Part shown: positions 46,122 through 56,189 of the stretch, one piece after another
Layout of the letters: each line of letters begins with the position of its first letter
Position numbering within the stretch: position 1 is the stretch's first letter
From: Streptomyces marianii
GTDB taxonomy: Bacteria; Actinomycetota; Actinomycetes; Streptomycetales; Streptomycetaceae
Assembly (NCBI RefSeq): GCF_005795905.1
Contig: NZ_VAWE01000001.1
Coordinates: 1,798,001-1,862,000 of the forward strand
Length of the DNA stretch: 64,000 bases
Direction: 5' to 3'
The notes under the pieces: model-generated
The model's input: the letters and a program-made list of their open reading frames with translations, nothing else
Databases searched by the model: none
Told to the model about the DNA's origin: nothing
Made by a program: the position numbers and the translations under genes

Positions 46122-47234
46122 TCAGCCGATCTGTGCGCCGACCGCCTCGAGCGCGGTCGTCACCGGCTGGAAGAAGGTCTCGCCGCCCGAGGTGCAGTCG
46201 CCGCTGCCGCCGGACGTCAGGCCGATCGCATTGCCGTCCCGGGTGAACAGCGCGCCGCCGCTGTCGCCCGGCTCGGCGCAGACGTTGGTCTGGATCAGTC
46301 CGCTGACGGTGCCCTCGGGGTAGTTGACCGTGGCGTTCAGGCCGGTCACCTGGCCGCCGTTGAGGCCGGTGGTGCTTCCCATGCGGAAGACCTCCTGGCC
46401 GACGGCCGCGTCGGCGGCCTGCCCGATCTCCAGGAGCTGCCCGTTGCCCAGGTCGACGGCGCTCGGCGCCTCCGTGTTCGGGTCGTCGTACGTCACGAGC
46501 GCGAAGTCGCCCTCACCGGGGAAGACGGACTCCTGGGCGGTGCCGACGGGCTGTCCGCCCTGTTGCTCGGACCACTGTTCGGAGGCGGCGGTGCAGTGGC
46601 CGGCCGTGAGGAATCCGGGCTGTCCGTCCTGGGTCGTGACGTTGAAGCCGAGTGAGCAGCGCGAACCGCCGCCGAAGATGGCGTCCCCGCCTTCCAGGAG
46701 GGGCTTGAACTCGCCCTTGGACTTCTGGAGCCGGGCCACCCCGTCGCCGAGCGACTCGACGGCCGACTCGACGGTGTTCCACCGGTCGCCGGTGACGGTG
46801 CGGTCGGCGGTCACCAGGATCTGGTTGTTCCTCGGGTCGATGGCCCAGGCCGTGCCCGGGACCGCGGCGTCGCTCGAGAGCGAGCGGGTCGCGGACTTCA
46901 GCGTGGAGAAGCTGTTCTGCACGCTGCGGGCCACCGCACCGGCCCGCTTGATCTCGATGTTCACATCGTTGTCGTTGCCGACGACGTTCACGATGAGCTG
47001 CTGCTTCGACGCGTCGTAGTAGGCGCCGCCGTAGGAGTCGCCGAGCTGCTTGCCCAGCTGCTGGAGGAGATCCGCGGCCGAGGCGGCACTCATCTTTCTG
47101 GGAGCGGTCTTGTCGTCCTCGGATCCGGACTGCGAAGCGTTGGCATTCGGCAGCAGTATGGCGGCTGCGGCTATGCCCACCGCTCCGGCTCCGGCGAGTA
47201 TCGCCTTCCGCTTGGGTATACGCCTGTGACTCAA
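46122..47234 (-). CDS. streptogrisin-like S1 serine protease precursor
   Basis: 370 residues from TTG 47234, chosen because GGAGG lies seven bases upstream. Basic N-terminus plus signal peptide to about residue 33 (NANA), then an alpha-lytic-type propeptide (to about 185), then the chymotrypsin-like mature protease. The triad is intact: His in FLTAGHCT (about 211), Asp in GEGDFALV (about 241), Ser in AEPGDSGGALF (about 322). Cys pairs (SRCSLGF/GHC and NVCAEPG/GDC) fit streptogrisin disulphides. It is secreted and self-processing, and probably acts in nutrient acquisition or developmental turnover. Confidence 0.93.
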   Translation of the reverse strand: MSHRRIPKRKAILAGAGAVGIAAAAILLPNANASQSGSEDDKTAPRKMSAASAADLLQQLGKQLGDSYGGAYYDASKQQLIVNVVGNDNDVNIEIKRAGAVARSVQNSFSTLKSATRSLSSDAAVPGTAWAIDPRNNQILVTADRTVTGDRWNTVESAVESLGDGVARLQKSKGEFKPLLEGGDAIFGGGSRCSLGFNVTTQDGQPGFLTAGHCTAASEQWSEQQGGQPVGTAQESVFPGEGDFALVTYDDPNTEAPSAVDLGNGQLLEIGQAADAAVGQEVFRMGSTTGLNGGQVTGLNATVNYPEGTVSGLIQTNVCAEPGDSGGALFTRDGNAIGLTSGGSGDCTSGGETFFQPVTTALEAVGAQIG

Positions 47235-48251: not shown

Positions 48252-48357
48252 ACGGATCGGGCCTCCCGAACGTACCTTCCGGTACTGCCAAGCAGTCTGG
48301 GCCGCCGGTTCCGTGACCGGCGGTCCCGCGGTACGCACATCGGATCGGGAGGCACAC

Positions 48358-49140
48358 TTGCTGCGTCGCGTCAACGGGACAGCTCTCATCATCGCGGCAC
48401 TGGTCGCCACAGTGGGCGCGCTCGCTTTCCCCGTATGGTCGTACGCCGACCGGTCCGGGACAGGCCAGGCCAATCTCAACGCCTCGTCCGTGGCCACCCA
48501 GTGGGGGCCGCTGACGGCCACCGACCGCGACTTCCTGGTCAAGGTGCGGCTCGCCGGCCTGTGGGAGCTGCCCGCCGGGCAGCAGGCGCTCGAGCGCGCC
48601 CCGACCCAGGCGATCAAGGACGCGGGCGACCACCTCATCGTCGGTCACAGCGACCTCGACCAGCGCGCCCGCGACGTGGCGGCCAAGCTCGGCGTGGAGC
48701 TGCCGAACGTGCCCAACGAGCAGCAGCAGGGCTGGCTGAGAGAGCTGTCGGCGGCGAGCGGCCGCGAGTACGAGTACAAGTTCGCGAACCTGCTGCGCAA
48801 CGCGCACGGCAAGGTCTTCTCCCTCATCGCCCAGGTCCGCCACTCCACCCGCAACACCCTGATACGCCAGCTGGCGTCCGACGCGAACCAGACGGTGCTC
48901 GACCACATCACGATGCTGGAGAACACCGGCATGGTCGACTTCGACTCGATCGCCAACGAGGCCGCCGGTGGTGCCACGGCCAGCCCCACGGGCCCGCCGC
49001 CGCCGGACGGGAACCTGCCGCCCGCGCCGACCCCGGCCGTGCCGCCGGGCCAGACCGAGACCACCTCCCGTCCCTCGACCCAGCCGGGGCCGCCGACGGC
49101 GGTCAACACCAACCGCCCGGCTCCGGGCGCGAGCAACTGA
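48358..49140 (+). CDS. secreted DUF4142 protein with Pro/Thr-rich tail
   Basis: 260 residues from TTG 48358 (GGGAGG five bases upstream). One N-terminal hydrophobic segment (NGTALIIAALVATVGALAFPVW) is a signal anchor or signal peptide. Residues about 40-200 are the helical DUF4142 domain (TATDRDFLVKVRLAGLWELPAGQQALE … LIVGHSDLDQRARDVAAKLG). The tail after about 205 is Pro/Thr/Gly-rich (GPPPPDGNLPPAPTPAVPPG), probably spanning the cell wall. Function unknown. A strong hairpin follows, so it is not cotranscribed with the MNIO gene. Confidence 0.88.
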   Translation: MLRRVNGTALIIAALVATVGALAFPVWSYADRSGTGQANLNASSVATQWGPLTATDRDFLVKVRLAGLWELPAGQQALERAPTQAIKDAGDHLIVGHSDLDQRARDVAAKLGVELPNVPNEQQQGWLRELSAASGREYEYKFANLLRNAHGKVFSLIAQVRHSTRNTLIRQLASDANQTVLDHITMLENTGMVDFDSIANEAAGGATASPTGPPPPDGNLPPAPTPAVPPGQTETTSRPSTQPGPPTAVNTNRPAPGASN

Positions 49141-49194: not shown

Positions 49195-49287
49195 GCAACC
49201 TCAAATGAAGCTCTGAACGTCCCCTCCTCCGGATTGGTCGGGGCCCCACGGGGCCATGACCCCTGCAGACACGGAGGAGGGGGACCC

Positions 49288-50880
49288 ATGAAGCAGCCCG
49301 ACAGGCTCGGAACCGGTATCGGCTGGCGCCCGGAGATCGCCGCTGCCGTGGAACGGCTCCCCGGTCTCGACTGGGTCGAGGTCGTCGCGGAGAACGTCTG
49401 CCCCGGCCATCTCCCCGACTCGCTCGGGCGGCTGAGGGAGCGGGGCGTCACCGTCGTCCCGCACGGTGTCTCGCTGGGACTCGGCGGGGCGGAACGGCCG
49501 GACGCTCGCCGACTGGCCGATCTGGCCGCACGCGCCGAGGCGCTGGGGGCGCCGCTCGTCACCGAGCACATCGCCTTCGTCCGCGCGGGCGGTGCCCTCA
49601 CCGCCTCACCCCGGGTGGAGGCCGGGCATCTGCTCCCCGTCCCGCGCACCCGCGACGCGCTGGACGTCCTCTGCGAGAACGTCAGGATCGCCCAGGACAG
49701 CCTGCCCGTGCCGCTCGCCCTGGAGAACATCGCCGCCCTGATCTCATGGCCCGGCGAGGAGATGACGGAGGGCCGGTTCCTCGCGGAGCTCGTCGAGCGC
49801 ACCGGGGTACGGCTGCTGATCGACGTCGCCAATCTGCACACCAACCACGTCAACCGGGGCGAGGATCCGGTCCGGGCCCTGGACGAGCTGCCCGTCGGGG
49901 CGATCGCGTACGTCCATGTCGCGGGCGGTCTGGAGCGGGACGGCGTCTGGCACGACACCCACGCCCACCCCGTGCCGCGGCCGGTCCTCGACATCCTCGC
50001 CGAGCTGCGCTCGCGCATCGACCCACCCGGGGTGCTACTGGAGCGGGACGACGACTTCCCGCCCGAGGAGGAGCTGGCGGCGGAACTGGAGACGATCCGC
50101 GCGATCCTCGCCGCGCCCCCGCCACGGGCACCTCGCACCCAGGTGCAGGGCGCTCCGGCCGCGCGTACCGATGATGCGGACGCGGCGCGCGAGCCGGCGT
50201 CCCGTACCGCGGCGACGACGGCTCCGGTTCCGGGCACGGGACCGGGCACGGGACCGGGCACGGGTCCGGGACCAGGCACGGGACCGGGCACGGAACCGGG
50301 CACGGAACCGGGCACCGGTACGGACGCGGGACCGGGCACGGAACCAGGCACGGGACCGGGCACCGGTACGGACGCGGGACCGGGCACGGAACCAGGCACG
50401 GGACCGGGCACCGGTACGGACGCGGGTACGGATCCGCCCACGAGGACGAGCCGGAACGCGGCTGCGGACCCGGCCGCGCGGGAGCGGCTCGGGCTCGCGC
50501 AGGCCGCTCTGCTGTCCGCGCTGGTCGCCGGGACGCCCGCGCCGGAGGGGTTCGACGCCCGGCGGCTGAAGGTGCAGATCCGGGCGCTCGCGGCCAAGCG
50601 GGCCGACGTCGTCGCCAAGGTGGCGCCCGAACTGCCGGAGATCCTCGGCGCCGGCTACCGGCACGCGTACCTCGACTACGCCAAGTCCCGCCCGATGCGC
50701 GACGGTTACCGCCGGGACGCGCTGGACTTCGTCGAGCATCTGCTGGTCGCGGCCGGGCCGGAGGACCCGGTCGCACGCCGGCGGCTCACCCGCTGGTGGC
50801 AGGACCGGGCGGCACCGCGCCCGCCGCGCCGCGCCGCGCGCTTCGTCCGCGCCGCCCGTGCCGCTCTCGTCAGGAGGTGA
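49288..50880 (+). CDS. DUF692 (MNIO) enzyme fused to a C-terminal partner-like domain
   Basis: 530 residues from ATG 49288 (GGAGG upstream). Residues 1 to about 275 are a TIM-barrel DUF692 domain, the multinuclear non-heme iron oxidase family (MbnB, TglH). Candidate iron ligands: His in [10 protein letters not shown] (about 58), Glu/His in VTEHIAF (about 92), Glu/Asn in ALENIA (about 144), Asp/Asn/His in [14 protein letters not shown] (about 177-187), His in VHVAGG and HDTHAHPVP (about 210-228), Glu/Asp in LLERDDDFP. Residues about 311-385 are a [14 protein letters not shown] repeat linker. Residues about 390-490 ([17 protein letters not shown] … [25 protein letters not shown]) resemble the SCO6045-type C-terminal domain often encoded beside DUF692 genes (recollection). 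The next gene's ribosome site overlaps the stop, so both are one operon. Predicted role: oxidative modification of Cys in a peptide substrate. Confidence 0.88.
50227..50448 (+). repeat. in-frame PGTG repeats in the MNIO linker
   Basis: 12-bp GGCACGGGACCG-type units code for PGTG/PGTE. A 48-bp compound unit beginning ACCGGTACGGACGCGGGACC ([16 protein letters not shown]) starts at 50314, 50362 and, partially, 50410. The length is a multiple of three throughout, so copy number can change without breaking the protein. Confidence 0.9.
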
Positions 50881-50886
50881 ACCCGT

Positions 50887-51921
50887 ATGTCGCTGAACGT
50901 ACTCGCCGTCGTCGTGTATCTCGCCGTGGGGGTCTCCTCGGTCCTGGTCGTGAGAGGCCTGGCGCAGGCCCGCAGGGGTCCCGGCGGCCCGGTGCACGAC
51001 CTCATGGAGGCGGCGTTCCTCAACGGCGGACCCGCCAGAGCCGTCGACACCGCGCTGACCGCGCTGGTCACGGACGGGCGGCTGGCGGTCGGAGGGCCGG
51101 GCGTCGTCGCCGTCCGTCGGCCCGTCGCCCGCGACCACGTCGAACGCGCGGTCCTGGACGAGCTGGCACGGGCCCCGAGCGGAGCGCTGCACGACCTGCG
51201 GCTCGCGGTGATGCGCAACCCCGCCGTGCAGGAGATCGGCGACGGGCTCGCGGCGCGCGGACTGATGATCGCGCCCGGCGACGTCCGGCGCTGGAAGACC
51301 TGGTCCACCTGGCAGCTCGTGCTGTCCCTGGTACTGCTGCCGGTCTCGCTCGTCGCGACGTTCGTGCAGTACGCGCTCCACGAGGGCTTCGGCGACATGC
51401 CGTTCCCGTTCGTCGTCAAGGTCCTTCCCGCGTGCTTCGCGGGGGTGGTCGTCGCGGCGGTCTGCATCTCCCGGGCCCGCCGCCGCGTCAGCGCCGCGGG
51501 GCACCGCGCGGCCGCGGATTTCCGGACGGCGCACGCCCACCGCACCGACGCCGGCCATCTGGTGGTGTTCGGCGGACTGCGCGCCGTGCCCGACCCCGTG
51601 CTCCAGGCGCAGTTGATCGCGGCGGCCAGGCTGGTGCGCGCCGGCGGCGGGCGGCCTTCCCCGGCCGGTGCCCGGCCCGGTGGCCGCACCGGAGGCAGCG
51701 GCCACAGCGGTACGTCCGACACCGCGGCCTACCTCCCCGTCGCCGTGTGGTGCGCGGCCTCCGGCGGCTGTTCGAGCGGGGCCGGCGGCGGTTGCGGCGG
51801 CTCCGGCGGTGGGTCCGGCTGCGGGGGCGGCTCGGGCGGTGGGTCCGGCTGCGGGGGCGGCTCGGGCGGTGGGTCCGGCTGCGGGGGCGGGTCAAGCTGC
51901 GGCGGGGGCGGGTCGACCTGA
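50887..51921 (+). CDS. TIGR04222-like membrane protein with Cys/Gly/Ser-rich repeat tail
   Basis: 344 residues from ATG 50887 with AGGAGGTGA six bases upstream, overlapping the MNIO stop. One N-terminal membrane segment (about 4-24), a soluble part (AAFLNGGPARAVDTALTALVTDGRLAVGG, typical of TIGR04222 proteins), and two central membrane segments (about 140-160 and 178-196). A cytoplasmic or external region follows, and from about residue 285 a tail with seven Cys (WCAASGGCSSGAGGGCGG, then three copies of GGGSGCGGGS, then SCGGGGST). Tails of this kind look like post-translational modification substrates. Together with the adjacent MNIO enzyme it suggests a RiPP-like pair anchored at the membrane. 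Confidence 0.85.
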   Translation: MSLNVLAVVVYLAVGVSSVLVVRGLAQARRGPGGPVHDLMEAAFLNGGPARAVDTALTALVTDGRLAVGGPGVVAVRRPVARDHVERAVLDELARAPSGALHDLRLAVMRNPAVQEIGDGLAARGLMIAPGDVRRWKTWSTWQLVLSLVLLPVSLVATFVQYALHEGFGDMPFPFVVKVLPACFAGVVVAAVCISRARRRVSAAGHRAAADFRTAHAHRTDAGHLVVFGGLRAVPDPVLQAQLIAAARLVRAGGGRPSPAGARPGGRTGGSGHSGTSDTAAYLPVAVWCAASGGCSSGAGGGCGGSGGGSGCGGGSGGGSGCGGGSGGGSGCGGGSSCGGGGST

Positions 51922-52359: not shown

Positions 52360-53955
52360 ATGAGAGCAGCAGCCCTGTACGGAGCCGCCGGCTCCCTGAT
52401 CCTCTCCGCCCTCACGGCGGCCCCGGCCGCCGGTGCACCGCCGTACGGCGCCCGGGAGGACCGCGGAACCGTCGTCGCCGCCGCCCGTGCCGTGGCCGCC
52501 GGCGTCACGTTCGGGGCGTGCCCCGCGGAGGAGGACCTGCCGCCCACCGTCGAGTGCGCCGTCGTCCGGGTCCCGCTCGACTACGCCGAACCGTGGGGCC
52601 GGCAGATCGGTCTCGCCGTCAGCCGGGTGAAGGCGACGGGCGGGCCGGCGGTGCGGCAGGGCGCGCTCCTGTACAACCCCGGCGGCCCCGGCGGTTCCGG
52701 CATGTACTTCCCCGCGCTCGCCAAGGAGCCCGCGTGGAAGCGCATCTCGGAGGCGTACGACATGGTGGGCTACGCGCCGCGCGGCGTGGGCCGTTCCGCG
52801 CCGATCTCCTGCGAGCACCCGGTGGAGTTCACCAAGGGCCCCACCGCCGCTCCCGTCCATCCCTCCGCCGCCGAGAAGCGGAAGGGCATCGCCCGTGCGC
52901 GGGCGTACGCACGCGGCTGCGCGCACAACGCCGGTCCCGCGCTCCGGCACTACCACTCGCTGAACAACGTCCGTGATCTGGAGGTGCTGAGGGCGGCCCT
53001 CGGCGAGCGGCGGCTCACCTTCCTGGGCGCCTCCTACGGCACCTACCTGGGTGCCCTGTACGCGGTGAAGTTCCCCGAGCGGGTGCGGCGCATGGTGCTC
53101 GACTCGCCCGTCGACCCGGACCCGGCGAAGGTCTGGTACCGCAGCAACCTGGAGCAGTCGCTCGCGTTCGAGAGCCGCTGGGCGGACTTCCGCGCCTGGG
53201 TCGCCCGGCACCACGCCACGTACGGCCTCGGCACAACTCCGCAGCAGGTGCAGGGCAGTTACGACCGGGCCCGCGCCCAGCTGGCGAGGAGACCGGCGGA
53301 CGGCACCGTCGGGCCGGGCCAGTTGCACTCGGCGTTCACCCGGACCGTCTACAACGACCTGTACTGGCCGCGCCGCGCCCTCGCGCTGTCGGCGTATCTG
53401 AAGGGCGATCCGCGGCAACTCGTCAAGCAGGCGAAGCCCCGAGCCTCGGCGTCGGCCGGGGAGGAGAACGGCAACGCCGTCTACACCGCCGTGCAGTGCA
53501 ACGACGCTCCCTGGCCCGCGGACTGGGCGGTGTGGGACCGGGACAACACCGCGCTGGCGCGGCGGGCGCCGTTCGAGACCTGGGCCAATGTCTGGATGAA
53601 TCTGCCGTGCGCGTACTGGCAGCCGCCGCGGCAACGTCCGGTCGACGTGCGCACGGGGCCGGGGGACGTGCCGCCGCTGCTGATCCTGGCGGCCGAGCGG
53701 GACGCTGCCACCCCGTACGCGGGTGCCCTGAGGCTGCAGGAGCGCCTCGCGGGTTCCGTGCTGGTCACGGAGCGGGGTGCGGGAACGCACGGCATCTCGG
53801 GCGGCGACAACGACTGCGTCAACCGCCACATGGAGGCGTACCTGCTGACCGGCAGGACGCCGGTGCGGCGCGCTTCGTGCGCGCCGCACCCGCAGCCGGA
53901 CCCGGTGTCGCTGGACCAGCGGGCGGTCGAGCGCGTGCTGCCGCCCGCTGTCTGA
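52360..53955 (+). CDS. secreted alpha/beta hydrolase, S33 tripeptidyl-aminopeptidase-like
   Basis: 531 residues from ATG 52360. Signal peptide to about residue 26 (APAAGA). Then the Slp/Tap-type exopeptidase layout: VPLDYAEPWGRQIGLAVSRVKA, oxyanion region LLYNPGGPGGSGMYF, nucleophile Ser in LGASYGTYLGALYA (about 225), a helical lid, C-terminal TAP-like domain with Asp in LAAERDAATPYAGAL (about 448) and His in GAGTHGISGG (about 476). It should release N-terminal di- or tripeptides outside the cell. A terminator follows the stop. Confidence 0.92.
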   Translation: MRAAALYGAAGSLILSALTAAPAAGAPPYGAREDRGTVVAAARAVAAGVTFGACPAEEDLPPTVECAVVRVPLDYAEPWGRQIGLAVSRVKATGGPAVRQGALLYNPGGPGGSGMYFPALAKEPAWKRISEAYDMVGYAPRGVGRSAPISCEHPVEFTKGPTAAPVHPSAAEKRKGIARARAYARGCAHNAGPALRHYHSLNNVRDLEVLRAALGERRLTFLGASYGTYLGALYAVKFPERVRRMVLDSPVDPDPAKVWYRSNLEQSLAFESRWADFRAWVARHHATYGLGTTPQQVQGSYDRARAQLARRPADGTVGPGQLHSAFTRTVYNDLYWPRRALALSAYLKGDPRQLVKQAKPRASASAGEENGNAVYTAVQCNDAPWPADWAVWDRDNTALARRAPFETWANVWMNLPCAYWQPPRQRPVDVRTGPGDVPPLLILAAERDAATPYAGALRLQERLAGSVLVTERGAGTHGISGGDNDCVNRHMEAYLLTGRTPVRRASCAPHPQPDPVSLDQRAVERVLPPAV

Positions 53956-54019: not shown

Positions 54020-54739
54020 TCAGGCCAGACCGGCCACCAGGTCCGCGACGCTCTTGCGGCGCCCGGTGAAGAAGGGGACCTCCTCGCGGACGTGCATCCG
54101 GGCCTCGGAGGCGCGGAGGTGGCGCATGAGGTCGACGATCCGGTACAGCTCGTCGGCCTCGAAGGCCAGCAGCCACTCGTAGTCGCCGAGGGAGAAGGAG
54201 GCGACCGTGTTGGCGCGCACGTCCGGGTAGCCGCGGGCCATCTTGCCGTGGTCGGCGAGCATGCGGCGGCGGTCCTCGTCCGGCAGCAGGTACCAGTCGT
54301 AGGAGCGCACGAACGGGTACACCGAGACGTAGTCGCGCGGCGTCTCGTCGGCGAGGAAGGCCGGGATGTGCGACTTGTTGAACTCGGCGGGACGGTGCAG
54401 CGCCATGTTCGACCAGACCGGCTCCAGTGCACGGCCGAGGCGGGTGCGGCGGAACAGGTTGTACGCCTCCTGGAGCTGGTCCGCGGTCTCGGCGTGCCAC
54501 CAGATCATCAGGTCGGCGTCGGCGCGCAGACCGGACAGGTCGTATGTGCCGCGGACGGTGACGTCCTTCGCCGCGAGCTGGTCGAACAGCTCCTGGACCT
54601 CGTCCGCGTACCCGGCGCGGTCCGCGTCCTGCGGCAGCACGTCCCGCAGCCGGAAAACGGACCACAGGGTGTAGCGGATGACCTCGTTGAGGTCCTTCGC
54701 CTTCTTACCGGCGTTCGGGATCTTTTCGGGCGCACTCAT
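54020..54739 (-). CDS. hemQ: coproheme decarboxylase / HemQ (chlorite-dismutase family)
   Basis: 239 residues from ATG 54739. Full-length ChdC/Hem[59 protein letters not shown] with the catalytic Tyr in [10 protein letters not shown], the proximal-His region [15 protein letters not shown], and [17 protein letters not shown]. It converts coproheme to heme b with H2O2, the last step of the coproporphyrin-dependent pathway of Gram-positive bacteria. It lies four bases downstream of the oxidase gene, so the two form an operon. Confidence 0.95.
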
Positions 54740-54743
54740 AGGG

Positions 54744-56189
54744 CTATTCTCGCCCGTCACGGACAGTGCCCCGCACCAGGGGGGCCGTGGCGATGATCTC
54801 GTCCGCCGCGCGCTGTCCGCTGCCGACGCAGGCGGGGATGCCCACGCCGTCGTACGCCGCCCCGCAGATCCGCAGCCCGGGCAGCGCGGCCACGGCGTCC
54901 CGGACGCGGGCGACCCGGCCGAGATGCCCGACCGGGTACTGCGGCAGTCCGCCGATCCAGCGGGTGACCTCGGTGGCGACGGGGCGCGCGGTCAGTCCGG
55001 TGGCCTCGGCGAGGTCCTTGAGGGAGGCGGCGGCGAGGTCCTCGTCCTCCCGGTCGAGTTGATCCTCCTCGCCGTGGCGGCCGACCGAGGTGCGCAGCAG
55101 GAACAGTCCGGGGGCGCGGTCGGCGACCCAGCCCCACTTCCTGGCGGAGAACGTGGACGCCTTGATCGTGCGTCCGTCGACCGGCGGTACGAGGAAACCG
55201 GATCCGGCGGGCAGCGCTTCCGTGTCGCCGCTGCGGAACGCGAAGGTGACGAGCGCCATCGACGCGTACTCGACGCCGGCGAGCTCGGCGGAGGCGGCCG
55301 GGGCGACGTCGGCGAGGAGCACGCAGGCCGACCAGGCGGGCGTGGCGAGGACGACGCCGTCGGCGGTGAGCTCGCGCTCGTCGGTGCGGATCCGCCAGCC
55401 GTCGGTGCCGCGGGCCAGGCCCCGTACCGGCGTCCCGGTGAGGATCTCCCCGCCGGCGGCCCGGACGGCGTCGGCGACCGCGGGCGGGAGGGTACCGATG
55501 CCGCCGTCGAGGCCCATGAAGACCGGGCCGGTCTCCTGCCGCTCGGCGGCCCGGCGCTGCACCTCGCGGACGCCCTCCAGCAGGCTGCCGCCGGCGGCTC
55601 CGGCCGCGTCGAAGAGTGCGGGGACGGCGGCCCGCATGGAGATGCGGTAGGCGTCGCCCGCGTACACGCCGCCGAGCAGTGGCTCGACGAGCCGGTCGAC
55701 GACCTCGCGGCCGAGGCGTTCGGCGACGAAGCCGCCGACGGCGACGTCGTCCCCGAGTTCGGCGGGGGGCAGTTCGCGCTCCCGGCCGATCCTGGCGATG
55801 CCCTCGGCGGACAGCAGCCCGGACAGGGCCTCGGGGCTGCCGGGGACGCCCATCACATGGCCTCGGGGCATGGGCCGCAGGGCGTCGCGGGTCCACACGG
55901 AGGCGGTGGTGGTGGCGGGGGCCTGCAGCCGGTCGCCGAGCCCGACGGCGCGTGCGAGGGCGACCGCCTCGGGCCTGCGGGCGAGCACCGACTCGGCACC
56001 GAGGTCGACGGGGGCTCCGGCGACCTCGCCGGTCAGGAGCTTGCCGCCGAGCTGGTCGGTGGCCTCCAGCAGGGTCACCCGCACCCCGGACGTGGCCAGC
56101 CGGTGGGCCGCCGCGAGGCCGGCGATCCCGCCGCCGATGACGACGACGCGGCCGGCGCCGGACGAGGGGTGCTCTGACGAGGGCGACAT
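54744..56189 (-). CDS. hemG: coproporphyrinogen/protoporphyrinogen oxidase (HemY-type)
   Basis: 481 residues from ATG 56189. FAD-dependent oxidase: dinucleotide motif [17 protein letters not shown] (about 15-31), [47 protein letters not shown] (membrane-associated substrate domain), [18 protein letters not shown], and C-terminal [26 protein letters not shown]. In this lineage it most likely oxidises coproporphyrinogen III to coproporphyrin III, ahead of ferrochelatase and HemQ. It is followed four bases later by hemQ. Confidence 0.94.

Follow-up and report, generated by a model that had tools for sequence, protein, structure and literature searches.

The 64,000-nucleotide stretch of Streptomyces marianii DNA analysed here (positions 1,798,001 to 1,862,000 of contig NZ_VAWE01000001.1, referred to as the window) was found to carry a gene in which a multinuclear non-haem iron-dependent oxidative (MNIO) enzyme is joined in a single chain, through a low-complexity linker, to a helical domain that appears to be its partner protein. 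The next gene encodes a membrane protein of the TIGR04222 family that ends in a Cys/Gly/Ser tail. The best explanation overall, and one considered fairly probable, is that the two genes form a protein-modification unit with a single-chain MNIO holoenzyme.

Six bases separate the stop codon of the fused gene from the downstream ATG, and this stop is overlapped by AGGAGGTG, which serves as ribosome site for the downstream gene, so that the two genes are probably translationally coupled. As the source genome holds one PF05114 match and one TIGR04222 match, and both are these adjoining genes, their pairing is not a matter of chance. A first-pass annotation, made from the sequence alone, had described a PGTG-repeat linker, a C-terminal helical domain and, six bases later, a three-segment membrane protein with seven Cys in its tail, all of which were confirmed (Table 1).

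The MNIO barrel and its C-terminal domain

The first protein of the pair (530 aa) contains an MNIO-type TIM barrel. It matches PF05114 (MbnB_TglH_ChrH) with an E-value of 9.7e-79 and 264.8 bits, against a cut-off of 25, over profile positions 2-262 of 263, and the closest NCBIfam model is that of BufB. PF05114 and TIGR04222 were searched for in 393 genomes of the class; 13 rows below 140 bits were dropped first, and 100 MNIO loci scoring 140 bits or more, together with the window, made up the 101 loci surveyed. In the alignment of their MNIOs, E146, D179, N182, H210, D223, H225 and E252 are invariant, and H59 and H94 are kept in 100 of the 101 sequences, which confirms the DUF692 barrel with conserved His, Glu, Asp and Asn residues seen at first pass. 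These positions are presumably the ligands of the iron cluster. Some Streptomyces (G431, G523, G589, G651 and G295) hold further PF05114 matches that are very divergent (49-92 bits); these were left out of the counts.

The C-terminal domain (residues 393-530) gave no match above the cut-off in Pfam or NCBIfam, DUF2063 included; DUF2063 was nevertheless its sole recurrent Pfam match, a weak one, and comparison of the two profiles with hhalign was not significant. Searching the PDB by sequence returned nothing significant for the domain. The best structural match of its predicted structure, a modest one, is TglI, the partner of the MNIO TglH; by Foldseek alone TglI ranked seventh (E 5.2), and no match fell under E 0.001.

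A profile grown from the domain itself located it within the MNIO reading frame in 46 of the 101 loci and in a separate same-strand downstream frame in 48, while it was not found in 7. Forty of the 48 separate domains start within 240 bases of the end of the barrel; the other eight lie 240-708 bases past it, and none of these has a TIGR04222 neighbour. Four of the 48, all among the 33 that are linked to TIGR04222, match half of the profile only. Every sampled locus with a TIGR04222 neighbour carries the domain (73/73; 40 fused, 33 split). Among the families sampled, fusion is restricted to f1 (Streptomyces; 34/41 loci) and f79 (12/24), and of 80 loci from named Streptomyces, 77 have the domain fused and 2 have it split, while in 1 it was not seen. 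A quick barrel tree, built without bootstrap and carrying a long-branch warning, implies at least five changes between the fused and split states, with the six split Streptomyces loci forming one clade nested within fused ones. The linker measures 25-185 residues in 45 of the 46 fused loci, the remaining value (-114) being an artefact. At three of the seven loci without the domain (G529, G491, G472) a DUF2063 gene proper occupies the position usual for it; DUF2063 was detected in four of the six genomes searched for this family.

That the same two domains are joined or split time and again fits subunits of a single enzyme. That the C-terminal domain is the MNIO partner fused in cis, as the first-pass annotation had proposed, is well supported by its separate occurrence 3' of the MNIO in nearly half of the loci, by TglI as best structural match and by the weak similarity to DUF2063. 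Such an arrangement is workable, since an engineered HvfB-HvfC fusion, MNIO first and partner second, makes 5-thiooxazoles and is described as markedly more active than the co-expressed pair, with no product from either protein by itself or from a mixture of both (PMC13419390). The gene studied here looks like a natural version of that construct. The engineered protein is man-made and linker-less, with a partner of the DUF2063-RRE (RiPP recognition element, where RiPP stands for ribosomally synthesized and post-translationally modified peptide) type and a small exported substrate (PMC13419390), whereas the fusions found here are natural, have a linker and carry a shorter partner domain. A natural fusion of this kind should be convenient for expression and structure work.

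MNIO loci with a TIGR04222 protein bearing a C-terminal Ser/Gly/Cys tail, mostly from Actinomycetota, are described by Antoine et al. 2025 (PMC12452194), where these membrane proteins are already proposed as MNIO substrates and PME-type 2 partners are given for part of the loci. Many of the loci are said there to appear to lack a partner gene, whereas at every TIGR04222-linked locus sampled here the seemingly partner-less MNIO is accounted for by a domain fused in cis or by a short separate partner. The fused partner may thus explain how many such systems function with no separate helper gene. No natural MNIO-partner fusion of this kind was met in the text consulted of PMC12452194 or of related MNIO papers. 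Natural MNIO fusions of other kinds are on record, namely MovX, in which the barrel is followed by a C-terminal RRE/winged-helix domain with a suggested partner role, and the MNIO-nitroreductase PflD (PMC12452194, PMC13419390, PMC13060819); according to these sources they differ in the fused domain and in the substrate.

Cys-tailed proteins as candidate substrates

The second protein (344 aa) matches TIGR04222 with an E-value of 1.3e-41 and 142.7 bits, against a cut-off of 43, and has nine Cys, seven of which lie in the tail past the domain. Adjacency was computed on the 97 MNIO rows of at least 190 bits, with TIGR04222 counted at E <= 1e-12 and about seven candidates scored per genome: a TIGR04222 gene lies within 8 kb of 73 of the 97 MNIO genes, on the same strand in all cases, so that the objection of rare adjacency in relatives fails. 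A GS-Cys tail, defined by three or more Cys that have Gly, Ser or similar residues beside them, is present on 68 of 130 TIGR04222 genes. The genome also holds an MNIO for 66 of the 68 tailed and 38 of the 62 untailed genes (Fisher 2.6e-7, on counts that are not phylogenetically independent); counted per genome, an MNIO is present in 62 of 64 with a tail and in 20 of 43 with none. As to the two tailed exceptions, the gene of G350 lies at the edge of a contig, and the MNIO would come next beyond that edge if genes are arranged as in its relative G360, and that of G423 is a doubtful reading. Gly directly follows 292 of the 365 tail Cys, and Trp-Cys occurs in 16 of 18 tailed Streptomyces TIGR04222 proteins and in 1 of 50 from other families. 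Linkage is not required, since a split-partner MNIO and a Cys-tailed TIGR04222 protein occur unlinked within the same genome in G363, G370, G438, G522 and G546 (one of the two G370 copies is tail-less). It seems likely that the Cys tails are substrates of the MNIO.

Several counts weigh against this assignment. Twenty of the 34 fused Streptomyces loci sit in genomes in which no Cys-tailed TIGR04222 protein was found; at 17 of the 20 a short tail-less paralogue adjoins the MNIO, and at 3 there is no TIGR04222 gene near. Moreover, 10 of the 94 partner-domain loci, two of them from Streptomyces, belong to genomes in which no Cys-tailed protein at all was found, whereas a Cys-tailed membrane protein was detected in the genomes of the other 84. 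Both the persistence of the tail-less paralogue beside the MNIO and these ten loci would suit an enzyme that modifies another target, with the Cys tail as an unmodified metal-binding or disordered segment and the neighbourhood as a shared stress response. The same can be said of the apparent relationship of TIGR04222 to the C-terminal half of DUF2207 proteins, as there are related membrane proteins with Gly/Ser tails. However, tailed genes are confined to MNIO genomes apart from the two exceptions noted above, and the clade that has no tailed neighbour bears the same tail on another protein, described below, so that an unmodified tail is considered rather unlikely. Two weak TIGR04222 matches that were tested (L037, L045) proved to be DUF2207 proteins with DUF2207_C.

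The 20 tail-less loci form one clade in the quick barrel tree (support 99), and the tail was therefore probably lost once in Streptomyces. The MNIOs of the clade have intact conserved residues and a mean identity of 88%, which rules out a relaxed enzyme in these genomes; since the conserved residues are kept, the enzyme still has work to do. By eye, no shared small Cys peptide was seen near the MNIO of the 20 tail-less Streptomyces among same-strand frames of at least 18 residues and at least two Cys, within 700 bases either side. At several of these loci a gene about as long as the DUF4142 gene of the window (see below), coding for 0-1 Cys and resembling it by eye, lies between the fused MNIO and the tail-less TIGR04222 gene. 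Several tail-less Streptomyces also encode, some 3 kb ahead of the MNIO, a conserved six-Cys protein of 59-66 residues (L104:1250-1436, L107:1614-1812 and L113:1525-1714, offsets in the reoriented loci), which is not among the called genes of the window.

A search of the 20 tail-less genomes with the window protein disclosed, in G637, an unlinked protein of 123 residues (L197:3002-3373) that combines a single membrane segment at the N-terminus with a basic stretch, Trp-Trp and repeats of the SCGGG type. In a set of 80 genomes, a single-sequence search detected this small protein in 12 of the 20 tail-less genomes and a profile search in all 20, of which the 12 that built the profile match by construction and the remaining 8 are independent of it; by profile it was unseen in the three MNIO-less Streptomyces of the set (G162, G474, G547). 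The profile also matches the tailed Streptomyces G104, G422, G491, G596 and G610 and, more weakly, G575. Mutual exclusion of the two substrates, hinted at by the single-sequence result (12/20 versus none in tailed genomes), was dropped for this reason. In 200 Streptomyces, a sample that partly overlaps the earlier one, includes nine profile members and had 25 of about 200-450 candidates scored, the small protein was present in 130, that is 127 of the 189 with a PF05114 match and 3 of the 11 with none (p 0.018). These three, G660, G744 and G806, are 95-98% complete; a completeness-filtered version of the test gave 0/7 (p 5e-4), with a filter picked after the data had been seen.

Trp-Trp is present in 25 of 25 small proteins, and the two Streptomyces substrates may share a Trp recognition element. 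The small single-pass protein is a probable second substrate, and the system extends beyond two genes. The first-pass proposal that the adjacent tail is the substrate stands as far as the near-confinement of tails to MNIO genomes goes, but not as a general rule of adjacency, as in one Streptomyces clade TIGR04222 is tail-less or was not detected and the tail resides on an unlinked protein. An unlinked small tailed protein was not met in the text consulted of PMC12452194. With about 100 residues it offers a second and much simpler test substrate; the prediction that follows is that the targets of an MNIO may be encoded away from it, and that cluster-based mining misses such targets. The small-protein gene is followed by a DUF2617 gene (Pfam match in L284, L285 and L296; same N-terminus by eye in L197, L294 and L305) and, where the stretch extends that far, by a spermidine-synthase-like gene, and in G637 it is preceded by an Aspzincin_M35 gene.

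The distribution of Lys and Arg argues for a cytosolic tail. Among 78 TIGR04222 proteins encoded next to an MNIO, 54 of them tailed, 72 show three or more hydrophobic segments, and in 69 of these Lys/Arg are more numerous past segment 3 than in the loop that links segments 2 and 3; the N-terminal ends had been trimmed to the last Met/Val before the domain, which undercounts N-terminal charge, and the inference uses the loops that follow segments 2 and 3. The small protein likewise has no Lys/Arg before its segment and a mean of 6.4 after it (25/25). Counting against the cytosolic side, a fourth hydrophobic segment is present in 17 of the 78, in some families just before the tail, and could flip the tail outward. 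The charge count is opposed by PMC12452194, which places the tail outside.

Proposed mechanism and known MNIO systems

In the mechanism proposed, the iron barrel would be joined through the flexible linker to a PME-type 2 partner domain, the product of a separate downstream gene in other actinobacteria. The substrate is probably held by the partner domain, and the barrel would meanwhile oxidise successive (Gly/Ser)-Cys-Gly-Gly units. The substrates would be C-terminal Cys/Gly/Ser tails of membrane proteins, namely the TIGR04222 neighbour in the window and, in other Streptomyces, also or only the small unlinked protein. The modified protein would probably remain in the membrane and bind a metal, of which copper is the likeliest, by means of 5-thiooxazole-type heterocycles formed from Cys. 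The thiooxazole and copper chemistry is put forward tentatively. Related enzymes make 5-thiooxazole metallophores (PMC12668002).

These enzymes, BufB, HvfB and FonB, act on captophorins and bufferins, which resemble the present proteins in having several Cys units per substrate, fontiphorin carrying seven 5-thiooxazoles, and differ in being small, exported and provided with a Sec signal, with separate PME-type 1 partners (PMC12668002). In contrast, the protein encoded in the window is a membrane protein of three segments with no N-terminal Lys/Arg before the first, by sequence and hydropathy, and the partner is a PME-type 2-like domain in cis rather than a separate DUF2063-RRE protein. TglHI of the 3-thiaglutamate pathway (PDB 8hi7, 8hci) is likewise different, consisting of two separate chains that act on a small scaffold peptide with carbon excision (PMC13174530).

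It is conceivable, at somewhat less than even confidence, that the present system is a membrane protein-modification system and not a RiPP pathway, in which a single-chain MNIO-partner enzyme would mark a portable C-terminal Gly/Ser/Cys tail on unrelated anchors (TIGR04222 proteins and the small single-pass protein), probably at the cytosolic face, to provide fixed metal-binding sites that are never released. A conventional RiPP pathway, in which the tail is modified and then freed as a small peptide from a membrane-delivered precursor, would agree with the RiPP precursors described for MNIO enzymes (PMC12452194, PMC13174530) and with the alpha/beta hydrolase gene with a TAP-like domain downstream of the pair (52360-53955). 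Yet the two-gene unit comprises no peptidase or exporter, a similar hydrolase (by eye) also follows loci that have no tail, and in the small tailed protein the basic region, Trp-Trp and repeats are continuous, with no obvious boundary between leader and core; release of the tail is accordingly held to be improbable. It is very unlikely that the C-terminal domain is a DNA-binding or other accessory domain merely accompanying the MNIO gene, as its helical nature and weak DUF2063 similarity (DUF2063 being labelled putative DNA-binding in Pfam, and the hhalign comparison not significant) are outweighed by its presence, fused or split, at all TIGR04222-linked MNIO loci, by its resemblance to the MNIO partner TglI and, at three other MNIO loci, by the presence of a DUF2063 gene in its place.

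Features of the locus and its surroundings

Table 1 Features of the fused MNIO gene and the TIGR04222 gene, in window coordinates.
Feature	Position	Strand	Basis
Probable ribosome site GGAGGAGGGGG of the fused gene	49273..49283	+	sequence reading
Fused MNIO-linker-partner gene, 530 aa, including stop	49288..50880	+	
MNIO (DUF692) TIM-barrel domain, residues 9-274	49312..50109	+	
Low-complexity linker, residues 275-392, mostly of low confidence in the structure model	50110..50463	+	
PGTG repeat within the linker, 48-base unit, 4.1 copies	50237-50426	+	
C-terminal helical domain, residues 393-530, DUF2063/TglI-like, putative partner (PME-type 2)	50464..50877	+	
Ribosome site AGGAGGTG of the TIGR04222 gene, overlapping the fused-gene stop	50872..50879	+	sequence reading
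TIGR04222 membrane-protein gene with Cys/Gly/Ser tail, 344 aa, including stop	50887..51921	+	
TIGR04222 domain, residues 10-235	50914..51591	+	profile match
Predicted membrane segments of the TIGR04222 protein, about residues 9-27, 142-160 and 176-194; the first possibly begins closer to the N-terminus			hydropathy
Trp-Cys motif (W288 C289) then Cys/Gly/Ser repeats, with 7 Cys if C289 is counted; segment presumed to be the substrate	51748..51918	+	

Directly upstream of the fused gene is a DUF4142 gene (48313-49140), preceded on the minus strand by a protease-like gene with a GDSGGALF motif (46125-47093), which by eye is absent among the called genes of ten relatives. About 2 kb downstream of the pair, on the minus strand, a chlorite-dismutase-family gene lies beside an amine-oxidase-family FAD (flavin adenine dinucleotide) gene (54020-54760 and 54744-56189). 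The former is visible by eye in 6 of 10 relatives compared, the other loci possibly stopping short of its position, and the two genes are taken to be the HemQ/HemY pair of haem synthesis.
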